64,000 nucleotides of DNA, taken from Diphasiastrum complanatum (taxonomy: Eukaryota > Streptophyta > Lycopodiopsida > Lycopodiales > Lycopodiaceae). A program made the position numbers and the translations under genes. Within the stretch, counting starts at the first letter, position 1. Each line of letters starts with the position of its first letter. This document shows, piece after piece, positions 28,429 through 29,166 of this stretch. The notes under the pieces are model-generated. The model was not told the DNA's origin. It worked only from the letters and a program-made list of their open reading frames with translations, and searched no databases. The stretch lies in contig CM055092.1 of NCBI GenBank assembly GCA_029204225.1, forward strand, positions 21,417,669 through 21,481,668. The letters are read 5' to 3'.

Positions 28429-29166
28429 ATGGCTTGTACGAAGCAAAACTCAAAAGATCCGAGAATCATGCACCTAATGCCCGACATGCGTTAAGACACA
28501 TACAAACGCCTAAACAATCCCGTAGGCTCACCAGGATGCACAAGCAATACATGCGAGGGAAGATAACCTCCATCACGATGCAACTACTGAACAACAAGCA
28601 GAGTTTCACATAGGAGATCCCCATCCGATTGCAGCTACTAATGTCCTTGAGATGCCAACAGAAGGTGCACAGGATGTGCACGAGACCATTGCACGAGCTG
28701 GAAGCCCGTTTAGCAACATGGCTTTCATTGAAGAGGAAGTACTGGCTTCTAAGGATGTCACCCTGGAATCAATTCTCGAACACTGGAATGCTGATACGCC
28801 TAACGATCTGGGCCAGCCACAGAGACTACACCAGAAATAGAGGGCTGCAGTTACGCCATGGTAGGGAAAGCGAATGGATCGCCAAAACCGTCGTACTCTT
28901 AGGCATAGAAAAAACACAGAACCAAAGATACTCCAAGAAATCCGGTACTATCAGAACAACGCCGGCCTTCTATTGCCCAGGGCACCACTCATTTGTATGA
29001 TCAAAGAGATTATTGATCCAAGAGATTATACATTGGATATGCCTGTAACAGCTGAGGCAGTCTATTGCAAGAGGCAGTCGAAGCTCATCTAGTCAGTCTC
29101 TTTGAGGATCCCAATCTCTGTGCGATGCATGCCAACAAACACGTGACGCTCATGCCAATAGGTTGA
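28429..29166 (+). pseudogene. Highly divergent histone H3 (possibly CENH3-like), full length but frameshifted
   Basis: The frame opens MACTKQNSKDPRIMHLM, a damaged form of the MARTKQTAR start kept in the copy at 38.8 kb. About 140-170 tail residues follow (HALRHIQT..SRRLTRM, then an acidic stretch MPTEGAQDVHETIARAG). The C-terminal part is an H3 fold: KPSYS, then [41 protein letters not shown], and after one more shift [20 protein letters not shown] and [16 protein letters not shown]. Canonical H3 has [35 protein letters not shown] and AIHAKRVTIMPKD at these places. TAEA before LQEA, VTLM, LLLP and the long tail recall CENH3. The C-terminal end of the last helix is missing. At least three frame breaks make it a pseudogene. 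Confidence 0.75.

Follow-up and report, generated by a model that had tools for sequence, protein, structure and literature searches.

A decayed histone H3-like gene of Diphasiastrum complanatum as a probable relic of a plant TIR transposon superfamily

The window analysed here, a 64,000-nucleotide stretch of the genome of Diphasiastrum complanatum, contains a broken gene that reads as histone H3 in its C-terminal part and is preceded by a long N-terminal tail. The original prediction described it as a divergent, CENH3-like histone, possibly carried or transduplicated by a transposon, which raises the question of whether the locus is a relic of a host centromeric histone or of a histone that travels with a mobile element. 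Our analysis points with good confidence to the second: the gene is probably a decayed member of a family, termed W, of an H3-like gene that stands in a plant TIR transposon superfamily together with ORFa, ORFb and a transposase of predicted RAG1/Transib-like fold.

A broken H3-like gene and its neighbours

Several frameshifts, together with two TAG stops lying in frame, break up the gene (copy 1, Table 1), and no intron was seen between tail and fold. Translated profile searches gave a significant histone-fold match over the Pfam cut-off, upholding the H3 fold proposed for the C-terminal part. The single-frame piece 29062-29163 matched Pfam Histone at E = 1.2e-6 (29.2 bits, cut-off 26.4) and PDB H3 at E = 6.2e-9, and the read-through of copy 1, with X at the breaks, reached E = 8.7e-14 (52.3 bits) in Pfam and E = 1.6e-17 in the PDB. 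The piece 28874-29089 taken alone is weak, with a Pfam E-value of 0.022 (below cut-off) and yeast Cse4 as its top PDB chain (E = 0.013). Among 5.8 billion proteins, the read-through matched at E = 3.6e-12, with two proteins at E ≤ 0.001; an NCBIfam search with the window histone gave no match. By eye, the αC end extends to about 29198 in a different frame (DFLAIRMRRRL), and of the predicted extent 28429..29166 the start is retained while the end moves about 30 bases downstream.

The N-terminus is a damaged ARTKQTAR-type start (MACTKQNSKDPR), as had been read from the letters; this is backed by copy 2, in which the ARTKQTAR N-terminus is openly readable as MARTKQTARDPR and MARPKAMARTKQTARDPRIMHLMQEHALRHIRTLEKSRRLTRM... 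stands in one open frame. Between this start and the fold the tail runs to about 165 residues, in agreement with the long middle region first described. Positions 28526-29062 form a single frame interrupted by two TAG stops; its 104-codon open run was equalled in 34 of 2000 dinucleotide shuffles, and its best frame with at most two stops in 22 of 2000. As few shuffles equal this single frame, the tail was probably genuinely coding.

The second copy expected 10 kb away was found on the minus strand and proved to be partial, with 89% identity to copy 1 over 257 bases that match 28376-28632 only. Differences between the two copies fall on the three codon positions as 8/7/8, and 70 compared codons show 7 synonymous and 13 non-synonymous changes. 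Since the differences are even over codon positions, the window copies are in neutral decay, without sign of coding selection.

Table 1 Features of the window (strand: + forward, - reverse,. not stranded)
Feature	Position	Strand	Details
GIY-YIG nuclease domain remnant	27724..27999	+	one stop; Pfam GIY-YIG E = 2.3e-9; also in L036
Copy 1, broken H3-like histone gene	28412..29198	+	start codon 28429, upstream ATG 28412; long tail; H3 fold ~28900-29198
16-base tandem duplication in loop-1 codons	28998..29029	+	TRF; makes copy 1 loop look CENH3-long
Ty1/copia-type element	29328..35322	+	begins 129 bp 3' of copy 1; truncated 5' LTR from 29328, 3' LTR 34674-35322
Degenerate telomere-like array (AAGGGCC/TTTAGGG type)	37829..38580	.	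cuts off copy 2
Copy 2, 5' part of same histone gene	38581..38838	-	open frame MARTKQTARDPR..., broken at repeat array
ORFb remnant, upstream of copy 2	39172..39515	-	homologue of ORFb in families A and B (tblastn E = 7e-13)
ORFa remnant, upstream of ORFb	40040..40366	-	homologue of ORFa in families A and B (tblastn E = 5e-34, 49.5% identity)

The mobile-element neighbourhood was also borne out, for example by the adjacent copia element with its LTRs, flanked on both sides by the 5-bp target-site duplication GTGAT. This element was rejected as carrier of the histone, having its own duplication and having inserted 3' of the gene. The GIY-YIG remnant lies about 430 bp 5' of copy 1 on the same strand and ends an AT-rich stretch at 22-28 kb (27-33% GC); at L001, too, a canonical H3 gene has a decayed GIY-YIG relative upstream, perhaps by chance. 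Elsewhere in the window, the ORFs at 26235-26842 resemble by eye Helitron-type Rep/helicase fragments (KYAMKSEP..., YILTKLISLPEISFTC...), with no Pfam match over cut-off. Two further copia elements (43121-47895 and 57296-62100) are 97% identical across 4.8 kb, the latter with an open frame of 1,332 codons. Long degenerate telomere-like arrays (TTTAGGG, AAGGGCC) occupy 7022-9291, 11954-12951 and 37829-38582, and 8733-9291 matches 38580-38014 at 93% identity with inverted orientation; a copia-family solo LTR with target duplication TCCCT sits at 11303-11952 within such an array.

H3-bearing TIR transposons and family W

A histone-profile search of the 1.74-Gb plant assembly yielded 6,325 first-look candidates. 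Among the 150 scored, 13 were of canonical-H3 grade, three of them (L001, L002, L004) read as canonical H3; below this grade lie dispersed matches that score 83-110 bits, whose open frames reach 417 aa and many of which contain stops. Twenty non-canonical loci were examined, all picked for an open frame no shorter than 318 aa and hence biased to intact copies, and they comprise 12 of family A, 7 of family B and one of family C (L028). All 20 belong to repeated families with transposase-ORF members, and within 10 kb the transposase ORF was seen at 12/20 loci, ORFa at 10/20 and ORFb at 15/20. The histone of family A consists of an SR-, Q- and P-rich tail (~320 residues in L009) followed by the fold, and that of family B of a short tail, the fold and ~200 further residues. 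The N-termini of B (MDRRKQTRRD) and C (MARTESTARA) do not hold an intact ARTKQTAR.

The family B element is bounded by a 35-bp perfect TIR (one copy spans 8.7 kb), and that of family A by a 37-bp TIR (97%), with one copy (L010) of 6.4 kb lacking a transposase match. Exact TIR 22-mers number 1,437 for B (709 + 728) and 868 for A (429 + 439), against 0 for backward-read controls. From the TIR inwards, family A presents ORFa, ORFb and H3 on one strand, with the transposase beyond on the other. A histone-profile match (137 listed non-canonical matches) lies within 6 kb of 13 of 150 transposase matches listed from 11,469 first-look candidates; 40 shifted controls gave 0-1. The genome holds hundreds to thousands of related elements with their own H3-like histone, which selection appears to maintain. 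No consistent target-site duplication was found in 10 TIR pairs, the pairing of ends within one element being assumed. ORFa and ORFb have no Pfam match over cut-off and no meaningful PDB match (ORFb to PB1, E = 0.052); by eye ORFa is BAH-like and ORFb ubiquitin-like, and neutral names are used here. In other organisms, element-type histone searches gave 1,128 proteins at E ≤ 0.001 among the 7,990 candidates scored, and for all 122 compared (120 listed and two earlier matches) canonical H3 gave the better score and an element fold the lower one; searches of viral contigs with the transposase alignment and the histone alignment confirmed none.

Two AlphaFold models of the transposase match the fold of Transib and of RAG1, the enzyme by which antibody genes are cut, and on these models a RAG1/Transib-like fold is shown. 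D362 and D459 are nearly invariant, the latter followed by C465 and C482, and are candidates for two acids of the DDE triad. The element transposase had no match in Pfam, and no hAT domain was reported. Significant sequence similarity to RAG1 was not found by PDB profile search, which listed no RAG1 at E ≤ 10, or by hhalign, where mouse RAG1 scored 20.1 and one of 20 shuffles scored higher. RAG1/Transib transposases produce a 5-bp target-site duplication, which was present in 0/10 TIR pairs. Membership in the RAG1/Transib group is therefore not confirmed by sequence comparison or by target-site duplications.

Selection was analysed by pairwise dN/dS. Between B subfamilies, the histone fold gave 0.11-0.22 in 6/6 pairs (two loci against three, non-independent), and the regions outside the fold gave 0.35-0.49 in the same pairs. 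Across all B pairs (n = 21) the fold median was 0.27 (range 0.11-2.09), across A pairs (n = 27, 8 of 12 loci) 0.41 (range 0.14-1.19), and the transposase fragment gave 0.37-0.51 in four B pairs. The fold appears to be under purifying selection between B subfamilies. For the same subfamily comparison, dS was 0.41-0.49 for the histone fold versus 0.06-0.08 for the transposase (L014/L023 vs L017/L025/L027; overlapping locus sets). Because these values differ sharply, histone and transposase of an element seem to differ in age and not to have one simple shared history, which suggests module exchange between elements.

A DNA search with the window gene returned 12 matches at ten places, both window copies included and the weakest covering 52 bases; the window locus belongs to a set of some ten old copies, family W. 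Five fragments of the family, again including both window copies, lie within ~220 kb (C1:21316355-21533648, L036-L039), and L036 is an inverted, 98% identical copy ~123 kb from the window in which the GIY-YIG stretch is duplicated too. At copy 2, ORFa, ORFb and H3 follow one another (40366-40040, 39515-39172 and 38786-38581) in the order and strand of family A, and L039 repeats this order with similar spacing. Neither copy 1 nor L037 shows it: tblastn found no ORFa or ORFb upstream of copy 1, and in L037 ORFa and the histone are on opposite strands. L040 has the family A arrangement: 3' of its histone piece, and in opposite orientation to it, stands part of a transposase (48% identity across 56 residues, E = 3.5e-11).

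The W read-through scored 80.8 bits (45%) with family A locus L012 and 79.7 bits (44%) with L009, versus 63 bits with plant H3 in a separate comparison; its best non-W genome match reached 87.4 bits (51%) among 147 scored of 3,167 candidates, from which the B loci L014 and L017 were absent. By these alignment scores, the element histones seen to lie nearer to W than plant H3 are of A type only. A family A histone also matches copy 2 by tblastn (E = 7e-5 at 38786-38616), and the MARTKQTARDPR of W copy 2 recurs in family A locus L009, where host H3 has MARTKQTARKSTGG. The window yielded no transposase remnant, and its histone has no TIR of A or B type nearby; CATTAG-type 9-mers occur elsewhere in the window, three times, on the minus strand. 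What places family W in the superfamily is the gene order, the transposase fragment at L040, the MARTKQTARDPR in common with family A and a score with family A above that with plant H3. We infer that W moved with a transposase of the same kind, its membership resting on cargo, order and relatives. The notion of a transposon-carried histone thus probably holds, with the adjacent copia element excluded as the carrier.

Possible roles of the element histone

Transposons are usually viewed as targets of host chromatin. An element might instead use the variant H3 to package the DNA of the element itself or the transposition complex. The histones of A and W start with a K4-bearing ARTKQTAR followed by DPR in place of canonical KSTGGK, and K9 is missing in both because of this replacement. 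A variant of this kind could take the active K4 mark and escape K9-based silencing. Such an anti-silencing function is a tentative proposal drawn from the tail motifs; alternatively, the variant H3 may tether or regulate the RAG1-like transposase. Because the starts of B and C are altered, a single tail-based mechanism is weakened. In its general form, the proposal is that the histone is a core selected gene of the superfamily, with which the elements would dress their own DNA, stay unsilenced and transposase-accessible, and thereby reach high copy number; we regard this as possible, at less than even confidence. If true, elements that encode a nucleosome subunit maintained by selection would be countering the host's defence directly at the level of chromatin.

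A different role, which we consider unlikely, is that the element histone steers insertion, towards particular chromatin or centromeres, through nucleosomes read by the RAG1-like transposase or by ORFa. The predicted fold of the transposase and the K4 of the A and W tails would fit, as would the reading of H3K4me3 by vertebrate RAG2 through its PHD finger, as the available text of PMC8355894 describes it. TIR ends also cluster on C1, with 28/100 listed B ends at 64.9-66.7 Mb and 9/57 listed A ends at 65.0-66.2 Mb. These counts, however, cover the TIR ends of A and B only, and a further A cluster at C1 48.6-49.8 Mb consists of 13 ends, all on one strand; the clusters may represent a centromere, a hot spot or a segmental duplication. 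ORFa, for its part, gave no match in Pfam or the PDB.

That the histone is passive cargo, a host H3 caught by transduplication and hitch-hiking without function, seems quite improbable. Stops in many copies and within-family fold dN/dS near or above 1 in some pairs (A to 1.19, B to 2.09, on few changes) are what such cargo would leave, and an H3-like ORF carried by a hAT element of a fungus has been described as transduplication (PMC3538342). Against it stand the low fold dN/dS between B subfamilies and the retention of the gene in at least three diverged families, of which A and B share ORFa, ORFb and transposase partners.

The CENH3 question and known systems

CENH3 is defined by a loop 1 that exceeds that of H3 by two or more residues, and the loop of copy 1 appears two residues longer than in H3. 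That length, however, comes from the 16-base tandem duplication, which is present in the 98% identical L036 and absent from L037, L041 and L045; in L041, an in-frame relative with the whole fold in one frame, loop 1 has 10 residues (IDDCTLGLRV), as in H3. The motifs LLLP, TAEA and VTLM had suggested CENH3, but LLIP- and TAEA-like motifs also occur in element histones (LLIPRAPF; VTADAV) and are therefore not CENH3-specific. A slight lean towards CENH3 does persist in the profile comparison (72.0 bits with a small CENH3 profile vs 66.8 with H3). In the unconstrained tree, element and W histones lie together on one side of a branch with weak support (74/80), and the test of a topology that unites W and CENH3 does not reject it (p-AU 0.224). 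A PDB search cannot separate H3 from CENH3, as Arabidopsis CENH3 itself matches H3 chains almost as strongly as CENP-A chimaeras. In a genome search with that query, the 13 H3 loci of canonical grade ranked first, and none of the 150 matches scored, out of 5,403 candidates, was recognised as a host CENH3. One survey reported no CENH3 gene in Picea abies (PMC4357034), which is a separate matter.

That the window gene is a pseudogene of host CENH3, copied beside transposons possibly by retroposition, is accordingly a highly improbable reading of these motifs, scores and tree, set against the H3-length loop of L041, the family A gene order at copy 2 and the higher scores of family A histones than of plant H3. 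Nor does the missing intron at the tail-fold junction count as evidence of a retrocopy, because A and B element histones are also open through tail and fold; the 5' flank and immediate 3' flank share no 8-mer, and a retrocopy was rejected for want of a poly(A) in the flank examined and of a target duplication, the sole match being one of 10 bases on the far side of the copia element. Together, the duplication in loop 1 and the transposon gene order demote the CENH3 relationship of the original prediction. A CENH3 origin is not supported and seems improbable, and the gene is described here as a divergent H3 of uncertain origin. With CENH3/CENP-A it shares the H3 fold, a long divergent N-terminal tail and LLIP- and TAEA-like motifs; it differs in that loop 1 is not longer in L041 and in that its family comprises several dispersed copies accompanied by transposon genes. 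There is also a warning for annotation: because 20/20 examined non-canonical loci fall in transposase-bearing repeat families, catalogues of histone variants and CENH3 in such plants could be badly inflated (6,325 first-look candidates here).

The pairing of a RAG1-fold enzyme with a histone invites comparison with vertebrate RAG, a reader of the H3 tail. A plant RAG1-fold transposase is not new in itself, because 39 Transib-like proteins have been reported in plants (PMC9435367). Compared with RAG1-like and Transib transposons as given in the available texts of PMC9435367, PMC4411706 and PMC8355894, the present elements differ in having no significant RAG1 sequence match and no 5-bp duplication in 10 end pairs, and in carrying a histone.

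In open-licence full text, as distinct from subscription papers and Repbase reports, no plant transposon family encoding a histone was found, and PMC3538342 was the one account of histone-bearing transposons. Its available text describes a hAT-type transposon of Pyrenophora tritici-repentis, ~5.6 kb long, with 26 very similar H3L genes (Manning et al. 2013). Both systems are multicopy TIR DNA transposons with an H3-like ORF and a further ORF of unknown function. What would be new here is the plant host, the scale, the selection on the histone and the RAG1-like transposase, the function being what we infer. The fungal element is driven by a hAT transposase, whereas the transposase of the plant elements has a predicted RAG1/Transib-like fold and Pfam reports no hAT domain; in place of 26 very similar genes the plant elements form three or more diverged families, with exact TIR ends numbering in the hundreds per family, and the apparent purifying selection on the histone fold between B subfamilies sets them further apart from the fungal hAT/H3L description.
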